Shown here one piece after another: positions 48,482-57,671 of a DNA stretch of 64,000 nucleotides (position 1 is its first letter; each line of letters begins with the position of its first letter). The notes under the pieces were generated by a model, which worked only from the letters and a program-made list of their open reading frames with translations, was not told where the DNA came from and made no database searches. The stretch is from Jiangella anatolica (GTDB lineage Bacteria > Actinomycetota > Actinomycetes > Jiangellales > Jiangellaceae): positions 62,001 to 126,000 of the forward strand of contig NZ_POTW01000002.1 of NCBI RefSeq assembly GCF_003236295.1. The letters are read 5' to 3'. A program made the translations under genes and the position numbers.

Positions 48482-51376
48482 GTGGGCCGGGCGCGGCTTG
48501 AGGTCGCACTTCTGGGTCCGGTCGAGGTGCACCGCGACGGGGTCACGATCTCGGTGCCGCCCGGCCGGCCTACCGTCATACTCGCGGCGCTCGCGGCGCG
48601 CCCCGGCGCCGTGGTCCCCATCGACGCGCTGGCCAGCTGGCTGTGGCCCGACGACGAGCCGGTGCATCCGCGCGCGGCCATCCAGACCCACGTCGCCCGG
48701 CTGCGCGCCGCGCTCGGCGACGGCTTCGTCCAGGCCGCCGGCGACGGCTACCGGCTGGACCTGCCGCCCGACGCCGTCGACGTCAGCCGGTTCCGCGAGC
48801 TGGTCGCCGCCGCCCGCGACGCCGAGCCGGCCACCGAGCTGACGCTGCTGCGCGAGGCGCTGGCGCTGTGGCGCGGCGACCCGCTGGCCGGGCTCAACCC
48901 CGACGACCTGGAGAAGGCGACCGCGCCGCTGCTGGTCGAGGAGCTGCTGTCGGCCACCGAGCGGCTGAACGAGCTGCGGCTGCGGCTGGACCGCACCGAC
49001 GAGGAGTTCGTGCCGTCGCTGCGCCGGCTGGTCGCCGCGCACCCGTGGCGGGAGCGGCTGTGGGCGCAGCTGATGCTCGCGCTGTACCGCCAGGGCCGGC
49101 AGGGCGACGCGCTCGCGGCCTACCACGAGGTCGTGACGGTGCTGCGCGACGAGCTCGGCATCGACCCGGGCCCGGAGCTGACCGGCCTGCACCGGCGCAT
49201 CCTCGACACCGACCCGGCGCTGCTGGCGGCCGAGCCCGGCACCGACGCGGGTCGGACGAACGGCGCGGCGGCGGGCTCGGTGGCGACGGTGGTGCGGGCG
49301 CCGGTGCAGCTGCCCCGCTCGACGGCCCGGTTCGTCGGCCGGGAGCACGAGATCGACCTGCTCACGGCCACGTTGTCCGAGGCGCGGTCGTGGGCCCGGC
49401 TCGGCCTGATCAGCGGGCCCGGCGGATCGGGGAAGACCACGCTCGCGCTGCACGTCGGGCACGCGCTGCGCGACGCGCACCCCGACGGCCAGCTGTTCGC
49501 GGAGCTGCGCGGGTCGACCGTCCCGGCCGACCCGGGTGATGTGCTGGCGGAGTTCCTGCGCGCGCTGGCGACACCGGAGGAGGACATCCCGGCGACGCTG
49601 GACGAGCGGGCCGCGCTGTTCCGGTCCGCCTGCGCGCACCGCCGGCTGCTGGTGGTGCTCGACGACGCCAGCGACGCCGCGCAGCTGACCCCGTTGCTGC
49701 CCGGCGCGGGCGGCTGCAGCGTGCTGGTGACCAGCCGGCCGCAGCTGAGCATGATCCCCGCCGATGTGCAGATCGACCTCGCGCTGTTCTCCGACGAGGA
49801 CGCCTACGAGCTGCTGGAGTCGATGGTCGGCGCCGACCGGCTGGCGGCCGAGCCGGACGCGACCGCGCTGCTCATCAACGCCTGCAAGGGCTCGCCGCTG
49901 GCGCTGCGGATCGCCGGCGGGCGGCTGGTGACCCGGCCGTCCTGGCCGATCGACCACTTCGCCGAGCGGCTGCTCACCAGCCGGCTGGACGAGCTGGAGA
50001 TGGGCGACCTCAGCGTGCGCTCCATGCTGACCGCGTCGGTGCAGGGCCTGGACCCGGCGATCGCGTTCCGGTTCCGGCTGCTGGCCGCCGTGCCCGGTCC
50101 CGCCGTGGACGTCGAGACCGCGGCCGCCGCGTGGGACGTCGGCGCCGACGACGCTCGAGGCGTGCTGGAGCACCTCGTCGACGTGCGGCTGATCGACTCC
50201 GCCGCGCCCGACGAGTACCGCTGGCACGACCTCGTCGACGACCACCTGCGCGCCGTCGCCGACACCCACCGCGTCGTCGCGGCCCGGCGCCGGCTGGTCC
50301 GGTACTACCTGCGCTGCCTGCACAACCTGTGGCCGGTGCTGCGGCCCGGCGGCACCGCCGCCGAGTCCGGCGCCTGGTTCCCCCACGAGGTCGCCGGGCG
50401 ATCGTTCGCCGACCGCGCCGAGGTGCATGGCTGGCTGCACCCGCACGCCGCGCTCATGACCTCGCTCGGCCTGGCCGGCCTGCACAGCGACCAGCAGGAC
50501 ATCGTCGACGAGTCCGCCGCGCTGCTGCTGGCGCTGGCCCGGGCCCGGTACGAGTGCTGCCGCGAGGCGCACACCGAGGACCTGTCCCGGGCGGTGCTCG
50601 ACATCCCGGCCAAGCTCGGCGACCCGGCGCTGACCGCGCGGGCCTGGCACTCGCTGGCGCTGTCGCTGGGCGCGCAGAGCCGGCGCGAGGAGGCGCTGGA
50701 GGCCGGCGCCCGGGGCCTCGCCGCCCGCCGCGAACTGGGCGACCGGTACGGCGAAGTGATCATGCTGCACAACATGGCGGTCTGGTACGAGCTGGACGGC
50801 CGGTACGAGGAGGCGGCGGCGCTGTTCGAGCGCTGCGCCGACGCCGACGACGTCCTCGCGCCGGAGGTCCGGCGACGCTGCCGGCGCAACCTCGCCGACG
50901 TGCAGGTCAGCCTCGGGCTGTTCGACGAGGCCCGGCGCAACCTGGCGCTCACCGGCGAAGGCCTCGGCGACGAGCCCGGCGTCGAGCTGTTCGACCAGCT
51001 GCTGGCCGACGGGCACCTGGCGCTGGAGACCGGCGCCGCCGACGACGCCGTCGCCGGGTTCGCCCGCGCGGTGGCCGTCGCCGCCGAGCTGGGTTCGCTG
51101 CCGCTGCAGGCCGCCGGGCTGGTCAAGGAGGCCAACGCGCTGCGCCGGGCCGGTCGCGACGGTGGCCCGCCGGCCGCGCGGGCGGCGGCTCTGGCCCGCG
51201 AGGGCCACCTCATCGACGTCGAGGCCGAGGCGCTGGCCGAGCTCGGCCACAGCCGGGCCCGCGACGGCGACGGCGAGACCGCGCGCAAGCACTGGACCGC
51301 GGCGCTGCGCATCTTCGAGTCGCTCGGCTCGCCGCGCGCCGACGAGCTGCGCGAGCTGGTGGCGGAGCGGCCGTGA
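48482..51376 (+). CDS. SARP/AfsR-type regulator 1 (winged helix, BTAD, NB-ARC, TPR)
   Basis: This 964-residue regulator has an OmpR-like winged helix (about 6-85), a bacterial transcriptional activation domain (about 90-235) and an NB-ARC ATPase. The P-loop is GPGGSGKTTLAL near 312 and the Walker B segment is RLLVVLDDA near 385. TPR-like helices fill about 620-950. AfsR relatives activate secondary metabolism or morphological genes through 11-bp direct repeats. A GTG start has GGAGGG upstream. It overlaps a second SARP gene by 4 bp. The roughly 180-bp region before it should hold the promoter. Confidence 0.94.
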   Translation: MGRARLEVALLGPVEVHRDGVTISVPPGRPTVILAALAARPGAVVPIDALASWLWPDDEPVHPRAAIQTHVARLRAALGDGFVQAAGDGYRLDLPPDAVDVSRFRELVAAARDAEPATELTLLREALALWRGDPLAGLNPDDLEKATAPLLVEELLSATERLNELRLRLDRTDEEFVPSLRRLVAAHPWRERLWAQLMLALYRQGRQGDALAAYHEVVTVLRDELGIDPGPELTGLHRRILDTDPALLAAEPGTDAGRTNGAAAGSVATVVRAPVQLPRSTARFVGREHEIDLLTATLSEARSWARLGLISGPGGSGKTTLALHVGHALRDAHPDGQLFAELRGSTVPADPGDVLAEFLRALATPEEDIPATLDERAALFRSACAHRRLLVVLDDASDAAQLTPLLPGAGGCSVLVTSRPQLSMIPADVQIDLALFSDEDAYELLESMVGADRLAAEPDATALLINACKGSPLALRIAGGRLVTRPSWPIDHFAERLLTSRLDELEMGDLSVRSMLTASVQGLDPAIAFRFRLLAAVPGPAVDVETAAAAWDVGADDARGVLEHLVDVRLIDSAAPDEYRWHDLVDDHLRAVADTHRVVAARRRLVRYYLRCLHNLWPVLRPGGTAAESGAWFPHEVAGRSFADRAEVHGWLHPHAALMTSLGLAGLHSDQQDIVDESAALLLALARARYECCREAHTEDLSRAVLDIPAKLGDPALTARAWHSLALSLGAQSRREEALEAGARGLAARRELGDRYGEVIMLHNMAVWYELDGRYEEAAALFERCADADDVLAPEVRRRCRRNLADVQVSLGLFDEARRNLALTGEGLGDEPGVELFDQLLADGHLALETGAADDAVAGFARAVAVAAELGSLPLQAAGLVKEANALRRAGRDGGPPAARAAALAREGHLIDVEAEALAELGHSRARDGDGETARKHWTAALRIFESLGSPRADELRELVAERP

Positions 51377-54237
51377 CCAGCGCTCCGGACCTCGATCCCG
51401 GCCGGCCGCTCGGCCCGCCCGGGCCCGAGGCCGGCGCGGACACCACCGTCGACATCCGGCTGCTCGGCCCGGTCGAGGTCCGTCGCGACGGCGTGCCGGT
51501 GCCGGTCCCGTCCGGCCGGCCGGCGGTGATCCTCGCCGCGCTGGCGCTGCGGACCGGCGGCGTCGTCTCGCAGGGCACGCTGGCCCGGCTGCTGTGGCCC
51601 GACGTCCAGCCGGAGCATCCACGTGCGGCGCTGCAGACGCACGTGGCCCGGGTCCGCGCCGTGCTCGGCCGGAGCGCGATCGAGTCCACCGGCGACGGCT
51701 ACCGGCTGGTGCTCCCGCCCGAGTCGGTCGACGTCGGGCGGCTGCGGGCGCTGTCCGCCGCCGCGCGCACCGTCGAGGAGCTGCCGGAGCGGCTGGCGCT
51801 GCTGGACCGGGCGCTGGCGCTGTGGCGGGGCAACCCGCTGACCGGTCTCTGGCCCGACGTGCTGACGCGGCAGAGCGGACCCGCCGTGCTGGACGAGATC
51901 CTCGGCGTCGCCGAGCGTGCCCACGAGCTGCGGCTGCTGCTGCACGGACCCGACGACGGCGTGATCCGCGAGCTGCGCGAGCTGGTGACGGCGCACCCGG
52001 AGCGCGAGGGCGCCGCCGCCCAGCTGATGGCGGCGCTGTACCGCGAGGGCCGCCAGGGCGACGCGCTCGGCGTCTTCAACGACACCGTCCGCGCGCTGCG
52101 GGCGGCCGGTCGCCGTCCGGGCCCGGAGCTGGCCGCGCTGCACACCAGGATCCTCGCCGTCGCGCCCGACGCTCCGGAGGTCGCCGGCGCGCCGGTCGAG
52201 GACGCCGGGCACGCGGCCGCCCCGTCCGGCGCGCCGTCCCGGCCCGGGCAGCCGCGACCGGCCCAGCTGCCGTCGCGGCCCCGGTCCTTCGTCGGCCGCG
52301 CCGGCGAGATCGCCGTACTCACCGCCGCGCTCCGATCCGGCTCCGCCCCCGAGGGGCGCTGCCGGACCGTCGTCATCTCCGGCCCCGGCGGCACCGGCAA
52401 GACGACGCTGGCGCTGCGGGTGGCGCACGAGGTCCGTGACCACTACCCCGACGGCCAGCTCTTCGCCGACCTGCGGACCAGCAGCGACGCGGCGGCGCTC
52501 GGCACCGACGCGCTGGCCGGGCTGCTGCGGGCGCTCGGCGTCGGCGGCCCGGACCTGCCGCCGTGCCCGCAGGAGCGGGCCGAGCTGTTCCGCCGGCTGT
52601 GCGCCGGCCGGCGGCTGCTGGTGCTGATGGACGACGCCGACCCGGAGGCGGCCGCGTCGCTGCTGCCGGCCGAGCCGGGCTGCGCCGTCATCGTCACCAG
52701 CCGGCGCCGGGTCCCGGAGCTGCCCGCCGACGCGCGGGTCGATCTCGGCATGTTCACCGAGCCGGAGGCGCGCGAGCTGCTGGCCTCCGTCGTCGGCGCG
52801 GAGCGGCTGGCGGCCGAGCCCGACGCGACCGCCGCCGTCCTGGACCGGTGCGCTGGGTCGCCGCTGGCGGTGCGGATCGCCGCGGGCCGGCTGGCCAGCC
52901 GCCCGGCCTGGCCGATCGAGCACTTCGCCGGCCGGCTGCGCGGCGACGACCGGCTGGGCGAGCTGCGGGCCGGCGGGCTGGCGGTGCGCGCCGCGCTGGA
53001 CGCCACCTACGTGAGCCTGCAGCCGGTCCAGGCGCAGCGGTACCGGCTGCTCGCGGCGCTGACCGGCGCCGCCGTCGACGCTGAGACGGCGGCCGTCGTC
53101 TGGGAGGTCGACGCCGGAGAGGCGCGCCGGGTGCTGGACCGGCTGGCCGGCATCCGGCTGGTCGAGCCGGCCGGCGACGGCTACCGCTGGCACGACCTCG
53201 TCGACGACCACATCCGCGCGGTCACCGACCCGCAGGCGGCCCGGGCGGCCCGCCGGCGGCTGCTCCTCCACCTGTTGCTGACGCTGCGCAACGCCCGGCT
53301 GCGGCTGCGCCCGCACGACGCCGTCCCCGGCCTGCCCGGCGCGCGCGACGACCTCGCCGGCGGGCGGCCGTTCGCCGACCGGTGCGAGATCCACGCCTGG
53401 CTGCATCCGCGGCGGACCCAGCTGGTCGCGCTGGCCCGGACCGAGCTGGCCGGCGGTGAGCAACCGGCCGTCGACCACGCTGCGGCGCTGCTGGTCCTGC
53501 TCGACGCCGTCGCCCGCGAGTGCTGCGACAGCGGCGACGACGAGGAGACGGCGCGGACGGTGCTGCGCGCGGCCACGCCGCCGTCGGACCCGGCGATCAC
53601 CGCGGCCGCGTGGACCAACCTCACGCTGACGCTGGCCGCGCAGCACCGGCTGGACGAGGCGCTGGCCGCGGCGGAGCGCGCCGTCGAGCTGCGCCGCGAG
53701 CTCGGCGACCGGTACGGCGAGCTGATCATGTTCGAGAACCAGGCCTGCATCCACATCGAGGCGGGCCGGTACGAGGACGCCCTCGCCGTCATCGCGGCCT
53801 GCGTGGACGACCGCGAGTTCCTGTCCGCGCAGATCCGGGCCCGCAGCCTGCGCACGCGGGCCCGGGCACACGCCGGGCTGGGCCGGTGCGCCGACGCCCG
53901 CGCCGACCTCGCCGCCGCGAGCGCCGTCGAGGAGCCGGCGCCGGTGTCCTACGACGCGCACTACGAGGCGGCCGTGACGGCGGCCGTGCACCGGGCGGCT
54001 GGCGACCGGGCCGAGGCGCTGCGGGCCTGCTGGCGCGCCGTCGACCTCGCCGTCGCGCTCGGCTCCACGTGGATGCACGCGCTGTCGCTGCTCGACACCG
54101 CGCGGACGCTGCGGCACTTCGGCGCCGACGGCCGCGCGCCCGCCGCGGACGCCGTCGCCGTCGCCGTCGAGAACCGGCACGTACGGCTGGCCGCGGAGGC
54201 CCGTGCGGAGCTGACCCTCGCCGGCGCCGGTCGCTGA
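51373..54237 (+). CDS. SARP/AfsR-type regulator 2 (winged helix, BTAD, NB-ARC, TPR)
   Basis: This 954-residue paralog of the preceding regulator has a winged helix (about 28-108), BTAD (about 113-255), NB-ARC with P-loop GPGGTGKTTLAL near 337, and TPR helices (about 720-940). Matching motifs such as YRWHDLVDDHIRAVTD and AWLHPRR occur in both proteins, which indicates tandem duplication. The GTG start overlaps the first gene's stop (GTGA), so the two are made together and could form heteromers. No target genes are named; a candidate binding box lies 2.5 kb downstream. Confidence 0.94.
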   Translation: MTSAPDLDPGRPLGPPGPEAGADTTVDIRLLGPVEVRRDGVPVPVPSGRPAVILAALALRTGGVVSQGTLARLLWPDVQPEHPRAALQTHVARVRAVLGRSAIESTGDGYRLVLPPESVDVGRLRALSAAARTVEELPERLALLDRALALWRGNPLTGLWPDVLTRQSGPAVLDEILGVAERAHELRLLLHGPDDGVIRELRELVTAHPEREGAAAQLMAALYREGRQGDALGVFNDTVRALRAAGRRPGPELAALHTRILAVAPDAPEVAGAPVEDAGHAAAPSGAPSRPGQPRPAQLPSRPRSFVGRAGEIAVLTAALRSGSAPEGRCRTVVISGPGGTGKTTLALRVAHEVRDHYPDGQLFADLRTSSDAAALGTDALAGLLRALGVGGPDLPPCPQERAELFRRLCAGRRLLVLMDDADPEAAASLLPAEPGCAVIVTSRRRVPELPADARVDLGMFTEPEARELLASVVGAERLAAEPDATAAVLDRCAGSPLAVRIAAGRLASRPAWPIEHFAGRLRGDDRLGELRAGGLAVRAALDATYVSLQPVQAQRYRLLAALTGAAVDAETAAVVWEVDAGEARRVLDRLAGIRLVEPAGDGYRWHDLVDDHIRAVTDPQAARAARRRLLLHLLLTLRNARLRLRPHDAVPGLPGARDDLAGGRPFADRCEIHAWLHPRRTQLVALARTELAGGEQPAVDHAAALLVLLDAVARECCDSGDDEETARTVLRAATPPSDPAITAAAWTNLTLTLAAQHRLDEALAAAERAVELRRELGDRYGELIMFENQACIHIEAGRYEDALAVIAACVDDREFLSAQIRARSLRTRARAHAGLGRCADARADLAAASAVEEPAPVSYDAHYEAAVTAAVHRAAGDRAEALRACWRAVDLAVALGSTWMHALSLLDTARTLRHFGADGRAPAADAVAVAVENRHVRLAAEARAELTLAGAGR

Positions 54238-54448: not shown

Positions 54449-56662
54449 GTGAGCGCAATGCTGCCGCGACGGCGGAATGCGGCACGGATCGCCGGGGTGC
54501 TCGTCGCCTCGGCCGTGGTGAGCGGCGGCATCTTCGCCGCCAGCACCGCGGCCCAGGCTGACGAGCAGATCCCGGTCACCGTGCCGACCTTCGCCGCCGA
54601 CGACTTCATCGAGCTGGCGGCGCAGCTGCCGGCCACTCTCCGAGCGGCGATCGAGCGCGATCTCGGCGTCGCCCCCGAGCAGTACCTGGCCAACGCGGAG
54701 CGGGCTCGTGCCGCCTCCGACGCGGCCACCGTGCTGCGCGACCGGGGCGTCGGCGTGCTCGGCGTGTCCATCGACGGCCAGGACGTCACCATCAACGTCG
54801 AGAGCGAGTCCGACGCCTCGACCGTCGAAGCCAGCGGCGCACGTGTCGTCGTCGGCCCGATGGACTCGCTGCGCACCGAGCGCGAGGTCCAGCCGGCCCG
54901 CGACCACAAGGGCGGCTACGGCTACGCCTACCAGATCAGCGAGCCGGACGAGACCGGCGCGTTCGACCTGAGCCGCTGCTCCGTCGGGTTCAGCGGGTAC
55001 GACCCCGACGGCGACTCGCGGTTCCTGACCGCCGGGCACTGCGGCGTCGACGAGACCGGCACGCAGTACACCTACCCGGTGCACCACATCGAGCTCGACG
55101 CCCCGATCTGGGCGACCGAGGAGTGGGCGGCGGAGTTCCCCGGCGAGGACCTCGGCGAGTTCGTGCCGGGCACGTTCACCTACGGCAACGAGCACGACGG
55201 CGGCCTGGTCGACGTCACCGGCGCCGACTGGGAGTCGGTGCCGCAGGTGGCCGGCTGGGGCGGCGGCGCGGGCGCGCCCGACGACGCCTCCGTCACGATC
55301 CGCGGTCCGATCACGGCCGTCGCCGGCGCCCAGGCCTGCAAGTCCGGCGCCACGTCCGGCTGGACCTGCGGCGAGGTGCTGGTCCCGGCGCAGAGCACGG
55401 CGGTCGGTGAGCAGAACGTCACCGGCTTCATCTTCAACGCCTGCATGCTCGGTGGTGACAGCGGCGGCTCGATCGTCGTGGGCAACTACGCGCTGGGCGT
55501 GAACTCCGGCTCCACGCACGACGGCCGGACCGACTGCGACAGCTGGGTCCCGGCGCAGTCGCCCGACACCGGCGACGCCGACTTCAGCATCGGCTACTCG
55601 CTGGCGACCGGCGAGTACAACGCGCTGAACCTGCTCGGCAACCAGTGGGAGCTGGCCGTCGCCGTCAGCACCCCGGTCGTCACCTCGCCCGAGGACGGCG
55701 GCGAGACCGGCCCGCGGCCGACGTTCACCGGCACCGTCGAGGCGGCCCGGTCGACGCACAAGGTCCAGGTCGTCATCGACGGCGAGCACACCTACGAGGG
55801 CGACGTCACCGACGAGGGCACGTTCTCCGTCCCCGTCACCGACGAGCTGGTCCCGGGCGAGCACACGTACGAGGTCACCGCGTCGTACGGCAACTTCTCG
55901 CGCTCCGAGGTGGCCGAGGGCAGCTTCACCTCGACCGAGCAGCAGGTCGAGCAGCTCACGGTCGCCTCGCCGAGCGAGGGCCAGACCACCGGCAACGCCC
56001 GGCCCAGCTTCACCGGCACCGGCCAGCCCGGCGCGACGGTGACGCTGTCGGTCGGCGACACGGTGTACGGCGAGGCCACCGTCGGCGACGACGGCAGCTG
56101 GACCATCGCCCCGTCGGCGGACCTGCCGGTCGGCGAGCGGTTCGACGCCGCCGTCACGCAGTCCTTCGAGGGCGACACCCAGTCCGTCACCGTGGCCGGC
56201 CTCGGCATCACGGCGCCGGCGGTCACCATCGACGAGCCGGCCGACGGCTCGACCGTCGAGGGTGACGTCGTGTTCAGCGGCACCGCCTACCCGGGCGCCT
56301 CGCTGACGCTGGCGATCGAGGGCACCATCACCGAGGCGTCGGAGCGGGTCCAGGCGGCCGCCGACGAGTGGGCCGGCGACCTGGAGATCGGCGAGGACGG
56401 CACCTGGACGTTCACCCCCGACGAGGCGCTGAAGGACGGCGAGTACACGCTCACCGCCACCGCGTCCGTCGAGGGCGGCGACCCGGAGCTGACCTCGTCG
56501 GAGGCGTCGGTGTCGTTCACCGTCGCCGCGGGCTCCGACGACGACGAGCTGCCCGACACGGGCTCGTCGAACCTCTGGATGCTCGTGGTCGGCGTCGCGC
56601 TGCTCGCCGCGGGCGGTGTCGCGATCGCGATCCGCGCCCGGCGGGGCGGCTCGACGGCCTGA
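54449..56662 (+). CDS. Secreted, sortase-anchored chymotrypsin-fold serine protease
   Basis: This 737-residue protein has a signal peptide (about 1-40) and a propeptide-like region (about 45-160). An S1-type protease domain follows with His in FLTAGHC near 197, Asp in EHDGGLVDV near 252 and Ser in GGDSGGS near 338. Three Ig-like repeats (about 407-690) lead to an LPDTG sortase motif near 701, a transmembrane helix and the basic tail RARRGG. It should be covalently linked to the cell wall. The GTG at 54449 is chosen because GGAGA precedes it; a GTG 21 bases upstream is also in frame. A strong terminator follows. Confidence 0.92.
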   Translation: MSAMLPRRRNAARIAGVLVASAVVSGGIFAASTAAQADEQIPVTVPTFAADDFIELAAQLPATLRAAIERDLGVAPEQYLANAERARAASDAATVLRDRGVGVLGVSIDGQDVTINVESESDASTVEASGARVVVGPMDSLRTEREVQPARDHKGGYGYAYQISEPDETGAFDLSRCSVGFSGYDPDGDSRFLTAGHCGVDETGTQYTYPVHHIELDAPIWATEEWAAEFPGEDLGEFVPGTFTYGNEHDGGLVDVTGADWESVPQVAGWGGGAGAPDDASVTIRGPITAVAGAQACKSGATSGWTCGEVLVPAQSTAVGEQNVTGFIFNACMLGGDSGGSIVVGNYALGVNSGSTHDGRTDCDSWVPAQSPDTGDADFSIGYSLATGEYNALNLLGNQWELAVAVSTPVVTSPEDGGETGPRPTFTGTVEAARSTHKVQVVIDGEHTYEGDVTDEGTFSVPVTDELVPGEHTYEVTASYGNFSRSEVAEGSFTSTEQQVEQLTVASPSEGQTTGNARPSFTGTGQPGATVTLSVGDTVYGEATVGDDGSWTIAPSADLPVGERFDAAVTQSFEGDTQSVTVAGLGITAPAVTIDEPADGSTVEGDVVFSGTAYPGASLTLAIEGTITEASERVQAAADEWAGDLEIGEDGTWTFTPDEALKDGEYTLTATASVEGGDPELTSSEASVSFTVAAGSDDDELPDTGSSNLWMLVVGVALLAAGGVAIAIRARRGGSTA

Positions 56663-56689
56663 CTGACGCCGTAGTCCGCGTTTCGTACC

Positions 56690-56728
56690 GGCGGCCCCGG
56701 TCCCGCAGCCAGCGGGACCGGGGCCGCC
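56690..56728 (+). terminator. Terminator of the protease gene
   Basis: Perfect 17-bp GC-rich arms (first arm GGCGGCCCCGGTCCCGC) enclose a 5-base loop, 27 bases after the protease stop. Confidence 0.88.
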
Positions 56729-56745
56729 GTCCGCGTTGACCTGCG

Positions 56746-56789
56746 TGAATGTGCGATGAAAGCGATCTGAAAGCGGGCCTGCCTAGGGT
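56746..56789 (+). promoter_or_regulatory. Three 11-bp-spaced heptamers and -10 box (SARP/OmpR-type promoter)
   Basis: Heptamers TGAATGT (56746), TGAAAGC (56757) and TGAAAGC (56768) recur at exact 11-bp steps. The last ends 9 bases before a TAGGGT -10-like box (56784-56789), and no -35 consensus is present. This layout matches sites bound by SARP or OmpR/PhoP-type activators, which occupy direct repeats in place of a -35. The binding protein is inferred to be one of the two nearby AfsR-like regulators. Confidence 0.65.
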
Positions 56790-56795
56790 TTGAGT

Positions 56796-56920
56796 CAGCG
56801 CGGGACAGAGGAAGTCCTCCACCGCCTCGGTCCGGCGCTCGCCCACGGGCGCTTCCACGGGGGAGCTGTCCCGGATATAGACCGGCCCCGCAGGTCCGTG
56901 CCCGGCCTGCGGGGCCGCCC
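56796..56920 (+). ncRNA. Candidate structured small RNA
   Basis: The segment begins about 7 bases after the -10 box. It has a closing stem, CGGGACAG (56801-56808) with CTGTCCCG (56866-56873), enclosing two small hairpins. It ends in a terminator-like hairpin with arms GGCCCCGCAGG (56884-56894) and CCTGCGGGGCC (56906-56916). No convincing coding frame or Shine-Dalgarno is seen, and the next gene is on the other strand, so it is not a leader. No known RNA family is recognised. Confidence 0.5.
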
Positions 56921-56948: not shown

Positions 56949-57671
56949 TCACTCCGCCCGCTTGGCCGCCTTCTTGGCCTGCTTGAGCGGCAGGTCCTTC
57001 GTCTCCTCCGGCAGCCGCCACACGTCGATGCCGCCCATGAGGTTGTACGCGAGGATCCGGATCCGCGGCGCGCCCGCCCGGGCTGGTCGCCGGCTGCCCC
57101 GCTCACCGGTGCCGCCCATCAGCGAGAACCCGCCGACCTCGACGTCGATGGTGTCAGGCACGTAGATGTCCATGCCGCCCATGATCGTGATCGCGACGAT
57201 CGTGGTCTCGTCCGAGTCGAGCTCGGCGTGCCGCAGGTCGATGTCGTGGCCGCCCATGACGGCGACCGCGTTGATCCGCTCCGCCGCCCGCCAGCGGCCG
57301 CGCTTCTCCGTCCCGCCCATGAACGCGACGATCCACCTGGTGGCCGACCGGCGCGGCGCGTCGCCGCGGAACACGGGGCTCGTTGCGGCCGCCGGCGCCA
57401 GGCCGCCGGGGCCGGGCAGGTCCGCCGTCAGCTGGGCCAGGTCGTCGCGGGTGACGGCCCGATAGGCCAGGCCGATCCGCTCCTCCAGCTCGGCCAGCGT
57501 GAGCCGGCCGGTGGTGGCGTGCTCCGACAGCGCCTGGACGACCTGCTCCCGCTCGTCGTCGGAGGCGCGCACGCCGGGGACGACCTGCGGCTCGCGGGGG
57601 ACGATCGGCTCGCCGGGCCGGCTCGGTTCGGGCCGGTCGGGCGCGTCGGCGGGTTCGGGCGGGGTGGTCAT
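56949..57671 (-). CDS. DUF1707 / LiaF-C-like protein
   Basis: This 240-residue protein has a Pro/Glu-rich N-terminus and a DUF1707 domain (about 35-90; RASDDEREQVVQALSEHATTGRLTLAELEERI). A C-terminal repeated beta region has MGG turns (FMGGTEKRG, VMGGHDIDLR, IMGGMDIYVP, LMGGTGERG) like the cell-wall-active LiaF C-terminal domain (DUF2154). No membrane helix is evident, so it is probably cytoplasmic or loosely membrane-bound. Its function is unknown; LiaF-like proteins act in envelope-stress signalling. Confidence 0.85.
   Translation of the reverse strand: MTTPPEPADAPDRPEPSRPGEPIVPREPQVVPGVRASDDEREQVVQALSEHATTGRLTLAELEERIGLAYRAVTRDDLAQLTADLPGPGGLAPAAATSPVFRGDAPRRSATRWIVAFMGGTEKRGRWRAAERINAVAVMGGHDIDLRHAELDSDETTIVAITIMGGMDIYVPDTIDVEVGGFSLMGGTGERGSRRPARAGAPRIRILAYNLMGGIDVWRLPEETKDLPLKQAKKAAKRAE

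Follow-up and report, generated by a model that had tools for sequence, protein, structure and literature searches.

The segment at positions 56746–56920 of the stretch of Jiangella DNA analysed here (64 kb, hereafter the window, from a genome of 7.0 Mb) has, by its sequence, the appearance of a gene whose product is a folded regulatory RNA and not a protein. Its assignment as the gene of a small non-coding RNA is well supported. The suggestion of an earlier, sequence-only reading that the output of this unit may be an RNA has gained good support from (i) conservation of a non-coding kind, (ii) the absence of a common reading frame, (iii) the predicted fold, and (iv) an arm-swap test on its first hairpin. 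Overall, we consider it probable that the unit is a self-contained small RNA gene belonging to the Jiangella lineage, which would be driven by an activator, fold into three hairpins (HP1, HP2 and HP3), and repress its targets by pairing through a loop. As that reading had described, the unit sits between the terminator of a protease gene and a minus-strand gene, here assigned as DUF1707/LiaF-like and of an envelope-stress type (Table 1).

Table 1. Features of the small RNA locus and its surroundings (positions in the window).
Feature	Position	Strand	Remarks
SARP1, AfsR-like (BTAD + NB-ARC + TPR)	48482–51376	+	Candidate activator
SARP2, second AfsR-like regulator	about 51439–54237	+	Start approximate
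Secreted protease, Ig-like domains, LPXTG anchor	54449–56662	+	Serine-protease motifs, enzyme class by reading; likely start GTG 54449 (by reading), listed ORF start 54428; stop 56662, upstream of the unit
Protease terminator hairpin	56689–56729		Upstream of the unit
Operator, three TGAA heptamers	56746–56774	+	Activator-type, from sequence; kept in 12/12 Jiangella genomes
Heptamer 1, TGAATGT	56746–56752	+	
Heptamer 2, TGAAAGC	56757–56763	+	
Heptamer 3, TGAAAGC	56768–56774	+	
−10-like box, TAGGGT	56784–56789	+	9 nt beyond the last heptamer
Predicted non-coding RNA, ~125 nt	56796–56920	+	Start placed from the −10 box
HP1, hairpin with variable stem	56797–56839	+	12/12 sequences fold as a single hairpin
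Invariant GUCCUCCACCGCC, within the HP1 loop and adjoining it	56814–56826	+	Anti-Shine-Dalgarno-like; putative pairing seed
HP2, hairpin	56846–56873	+	Core GCUUCCACGGGGGAGC invariant across 12 Jiangella genomes
Linker GATATAGACC	56874–56883	+	Invariant across 12 Jiangella genomes
HP3, terminal hairpin	56883–56917	+	33-mer 56884–56916 identical in 14/14 genomes
DUF1707/LiaF-like gene, convergent with the RNA	56949–57662	−	Start chosen by reading; 3′ end 56949

All 12 Jiangella genomes examined carry the unit, in one copy each. Its conservation was expressed as the mean pairwise identity over these genomes in a MAFFT alignment, with gaps counted as mismatches. By this measure, the promoter is 0.897 identical, HP1 0.859, the HP1 loop 0.959, HP2 0.933, the linker 1.0, and HP3 0.981. 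The corresponding control values are 0.742 at codon positions 1 and 2 and 0.659 at position 3 of the protease gene, 0.721 and 0.599 at the same positions of the DUF1707 gene, 0.746 in the protease terminator, and 0.395 in the 28 bases past HP3. From this profile of parts and controls it follows that a conserved block runs from the promoter to HP3. The block is more conserved than neutral sites and has no shared plus-strand frame with a ribosome site, as is expected of a small RNA gene. Among plus-strand frames of at least 12 codons that start inside the RNA, we found none with a ribosome site that is common to the 12 Jiangella genomes, and just one start, in G003, was flagged with a ribosome-site-like stretch. 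The initial impression that no coding frame with a ribosome site is present holds for this class of frames in the 12 genomes compared, and a plus-strand coding reading was rejected on this ground.

A short protein or peptide gene is accordingly very improbable, even though several frames can be drawn through the locus. A long TTG-started frame spans it in the window, a TTG or GTG immediately behind the −10 box opens a frame in nine of the 12 genomes, and a GTG within HP3 opens a frame of at least 20 codons in all 12, the latter because HP3 is identical in them. However, neither of these two starts was flagged with a ribosome site, and the frames vary in length from 20 to more than 160 codons, with sequences that diverge at indels in the RNA and entirely past HP3. 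Also improbable, although less so, is an antisense RNA directed by this promoter against the 3′ end of the DUF1707 gene. The unit and this gene are convergent, and HP3 could serve both transcripts, but conservation ends at HP3 and the next 28 bases are just 0.40 identical.

The small RNA reading is further supported by the predicted fold. HP1 consists of 12–17 pairs around GUCCUCCACC in each of the 12 sequences; in G003 and G006 its stem is quite unlike that of the others while its loop is unchanged. We exchanged the arms of HP1 among 10 distinct arm pairs and found a mean folding energy of −21.7 kcal/mol for the native hairpins versus −19.1 kcal/mol for the chimeras, with 64 of 20000 permutations being as good as the native set, although the sequences are related and hence not independent. 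On the alignment, 96.8% of the paired cells are retained as pairs (4 of 500 shuffles are as high) and the covariation score is equalled by 50 of 500 shuffles, whereas one of 43 pairs has changed on both sides, which 317 of 500 shuffles reach. Pair-by-pair covariation is thin. The arm swap supports HP1, but the changes on both sides of individual pairs do not exceed those of shuffles.

The seven sequences that were folded with HP3 included, two of which are identical, gave z-scores of −3.8 to −6.1. When HP3 was left out, five sequences scored between −1.7 and −3.7 for the plus strand and between −1.1 and −5.1 for the minus strand. The strand of the RNA can thus not be told by folding energy alone and is instead given by the promoter. 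The sequence-only reading had drawn the RNA as a segment closed by an 8-bp stem (56801–56808 with 56866–56873). We rejected this stem, as it is complete (8/8 pairs) in the window's species only, retains 3–6 of the 8 pairs in the other 11 species, and costs 3.6–23.4 kcal/mol when forced. The three hairpins describe the fold better than the closed segment.

The terminator hairpin that had been proposed for the 3′ end is present as a G+C-rich terminal hairpin, HP3, but lacks the T-run (U-run in the RNA) that follows the G+C-rich stem of an intrinsic terminator, and the rule of the terminator tool yields no terminator-like site there. Terminators without a U-run are common in high-GC actinobacteria. 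HP3 is probably shared, as a terminal hairpin, with the convergent DUF1707 gene.

The 33-mer of HP3 is identical in all 14 genomes of Jiangella and a sister genus, and a search of 393 genomes of the class with up to three mismatches returned exactly these 14, the 33-mer being absent from the other 379. A contig scan for the exact 33-mer gave eight records, which belong to six Jiangella species, Haloactinopolyspora alba, and one actinomycete MAG. The covariance model of the RNA matches 14 of the 22 genomes of the order, including the two of the sister genus, G012 (E 7.0e-9, 49 bits) and G013 (E 3.7e-10, 54 bits); these two scores owe a good part to HP3, whose reverse strand alone scores 23–29 bits. 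Both sister-genus genomes keep the TANNNT box and its 9-nt distance; three heptamers precede it in G013, and in G012 two are clear. The middle of the RNA, in contrast, is largely different in G012 and nearly all different in G013. In G012, a hairpin CCGCCACGGGGGCGG occupies the place of the Jiangella CUUCCACGGGGGAG, which reads as a putative set of paired changes. Taken as a whole, however, the G012 middle has no folding advantage over shuffles (z −0.44, 67/200); that of G013 does somewhat better (z −1.97). None of the eight remaining genomes of the order (G014–G021) has HP3 at up to three mismatches, a covariance-model match, or the full promoter pattern. The DNA downstream of DUF1707 orthologues, inspected by eye at four of the six loci of G016–G021 (L101, L102, L104, L107), contains neither the promoter nor HP3. 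At one of these loci, L102 in G016, visual inspection also showed an inverted repeat around AAATGATCATGTAAACCATG that is long and near-perfect.

The 33-mer of HP3, frozen in 14 genomes against an identity of 0.75 in the protease terminator, shows selection on this hairpin. It is conceivable, but in our view unlikely, that HP3 and the promoter are the main selected elements, with HP3 acting as a two-way terminator or a protein-binding site and the RNA body being of minor importance. The sister genus, which retains promoter and HP3 around a different middle, and the position of HP3 next to the DUF1707 stop are in line with this alternative. It sits poorly with the Jiangella HP1 loop and HP2, which are 0.93–0.96 identical and thus far above the neighbouring codon positions, and with the low identity of the adjoining protease terminator.

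The promoter that would direct this small RNA was confirmed in all the elements first described for it: three TGAA-core heptamers, their exact 11-bp pitch, and the TAGGGT box behind them. In the other 11 Jiangella genomes the −10 box reads TAGTGT (nine genomes) or TACTGT (two). The two-heptamer core has a single match in the 64-kb window with up to three mismatches allowed, and no match occurred in any of 100 shuffles. The pattern of three heptamers plus TANNNT matches 19 times in 12 of the 22 genomes of the order, while its reversed form has no match in the same 22 genomes. Twelve of the 19 matches are the RNA locus, one per Jiangella genome, and seven lie at other places in Jiangella. Promoters activated by SARP regulators are described as carrying direct repeats with a pitch of 11 or 22 bp, the 3′ repeat being 8 bp from the −10 element (accessible text of PMC10936776). 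With repeats at 11 bp and a distance of 9 nt, the predicted promoter geometry fits this published rule within one base.

The two AfsR-like regulators that had been placed just upstream of the unit both exist upstream, but a 2.2-kb protease gene intervenes. SARP1 matches AfsR structures (E 1.8e-36) and, by a residue count made by hand, has T and R at the positions of AfsR T88 and R92, which contact bases according to the accessible text of PMC10936776. The presence of an AfsR-like gene upstream that retains two base-contacting residues makes SARP control plausible, and we put the chance that SARP1 is the activator of the RNA promoter at only slightly less than even. SARP1 lies upstream of the protease on one contig, followed by SARP2 where the latter is present, in 12 of the 14 genomes, being complete in 10 and cut by the contig start in two (G004, G011). 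In G009 it is found on another contig, and in G013 a 52% SARP1 relative lies ~8 kb upstream with a TetR gene between. SARP2 was not found at the equivalent place in G003, G006, G012 and G013.

The same RNA gene may instead answer to an activator other than the neighbouring SARP, one that rules a small TGAA-heptamer regulon in Jiangella, such as an OmpR/PhoP-type response regulator acting on 11-bp direct repeats or a SARP encoded elsewhere; we regard this as a serious possibility, although one short of even. The seven other three-heptamer promoters, a possible lineage-specific regulon, are found in G001, G008, G010 and G011 (near position 1501 of L055, L063, L065, L066, L068, L071 and L073) and precede, by reading, four genes of secreted proteins and three of MFS-type transporters. 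None of the seven has a SARP gene in the stretch examined, which extended ~10 kb to each side, with one side limited to 6 kb in L205 and to 4 kb in L209. A strict form of the pattern (TGAAR three times plus TANNNT), which the window's own promoter falls outside with its first heptamer TGAAT, occurs 11 times in eight of the 393 class genomes, ten times in Jiangella and once in G157, and its reversed control never in the 393. Two of the ten Jiangella matches are the RNA locus in G003 and G006; no SARP match was found within 1.5 kb of the strict-form places in G157 and G005. Furthermore, G017 encodes a 60% relative of SARP1, but the 20 kb surrounding that gene contain no promoter of this form, and the RNA is absent from this genome by the covariance model and by HP3 at up to three mismatches. 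On the other side, SARP1 keeps its place in the neighbourhood, on one contig with the unit, in 12 of the 14 genomes, and G021 has a promoter (L157:10342) of similar form, with two heptamers, that points away from the start of a SARP1-like gene and into a secreted-protein gene.

The locus resembles the AfsR–afsS system of Streptomyces coelicolor, in which a large SARP with BTAD, NB-ARC and TPR parts likewise has a small unit nearby and 11-bp direct repeats occupy the −35 region of a weak promoter (accessible parts of PMC10972967 and PMC10936776). The two systems differ in the repeat, which is CGTT(T/C)ATCGNN for AfsR (PMC10972967, accessible part) and TGAAAGC-N4 here, in the product, as afsS encodes a small protein in these partial sources whereas the Jiangella unit has no common plus-strand frame with a ribosome site, and in the protease gene that separates regulators and unit in Jiangella. 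The analogy to AfsR-type repeats that was drawn at the outset therefore extends to the geometry, within one base of the SARP rule, but not to the heptamer. The operator of PimR-type SARPs, as far as the text of PMC5930380 is accessible, also has three heptamers with 4-nt spacers, but its heptamer is CGGCAAG, it drives a protein gene, and it does not overlap the −35 region. In the accessible parts of PMC10936776, PMC5930380 and PMC10972967, the SARP targets are protein genes. Our literature search, in which subscription journals were thinly covered and several sources were accessible in part, found neither a SARP-driven small RNA nor such a Jiangella unit. Within the limits of these searches, the unit represents a small RNA family that is new and belongs to a narrow lineage.

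If proved, the SARP link would make this locus a variant of the AfsR–afsS scheme, and with SARP1 driving the RNA, an AfsR-type regulator would have an RNA effector that carries a visible candidate seed. A bolder version, which we consider doubtful, is that a SARP, here an AfsR-like sensor-activator, directly outputs a structured anti-Shine-Dalgarno RNA in the place of AfsS, and that the unit is modular, its promoter and frozen HP3 being kept while the body is exchanged between genera. Were this the case, the frozen HP3 would have a role beyond termination, for example as a protein-binding or pairing site.

We propose the following scheme for the small RNA. An activator, for which the AfsR-like SARP1 from the upstream gene is the likeliest candidate, would bind the TGAA heptamers, all three or at least two of them, across the −35 region and bring RNA polymerase to the weak −10 box. 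The predicted transcript of ~125 nt would fold into the three hairpins and end at HP3, which would also terminate the convergent DUF1707 gene. The CCUCC-bearing invariant loop of HP1 would then most likely pair with the Shine-Dalgarno regions of target mRNAs and thereby repress them. As would be expected of a seed, this loop is better conserved than any other part of HP1, whose stem drifts. Pairing of the RNA with ribosome sites is a tentative element of the scheme, to which we give somewhat less than an even chance.

In regulatory RNAs such as 6C RNA and S. aureus RNAIII, a stable hairpin exposes a CCUCC or C-rich loop, and the HP1 loop is of this type. Unlike these C-rich-loop RNAs, the unit has no Rfam match at the gathering score and only weak sub-threshold ones. 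There is no match at the gathering score in the whole window, and the best relaxed match is to a microRNA model (E 0.0031, 27.6 bits versus a cut-off of 97). Identity with a known Rfam family was rejected, as none reaches its cut-off. Ms1 RNA is another actinobacterial small RNA that is reported for Jiangella too, but its neighbours are a HAD hydrolase and an oxidoreductase (accessible text of PMC9130861), whereas here they are the protease and DUF1707 genes.

Candidate targets were sought in the 12 Jiangella genomes with a pattern in which a start codon follows the loop's reverse complement. It matched 41 times (1–8 per genome), compared to 14 times for the reversed pattern; seven of the 41 matches are the opposite strand of the RNA gene itself, and 11 of the loci were inspected, where several matches turned out to be intragenic. 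These searches yielded no target whose complementarity to the loop is kept across species. The best candidate is a gene that by reading is ECF-sigma-like and has a ribosome site, CGGTGGAGGAY, that is complementary to the HP1 loop, with 11 consecutive pairs in six of 10 orthologues (L190, L191, L193, L195, L196, L198) and no orthologue at E 1e-40 in two of the 12 genomes. It was not accepted as a target, as the pairing is confined to these six orthologues and is absent in the window's own species. Within the window, the leader of SARP1 is predicted to pair with the RNA at −21.4 kcal/mol, a value past the 5% tail of random windows but short of the 1% tail. It was not accepted either, as the complementary GGGGGAC is kept in some species only, in a comparison that covers Jiangella and sister-genus species other than the window's own and G012. 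The start regions of the protease and DUF1707 genes gave background-level pairing energies. Separately from the question of pairing, the ~110 bases before SARP1 (L127–L133) form, by eye, a well-conserved untranslated stretch, possibly a leader.
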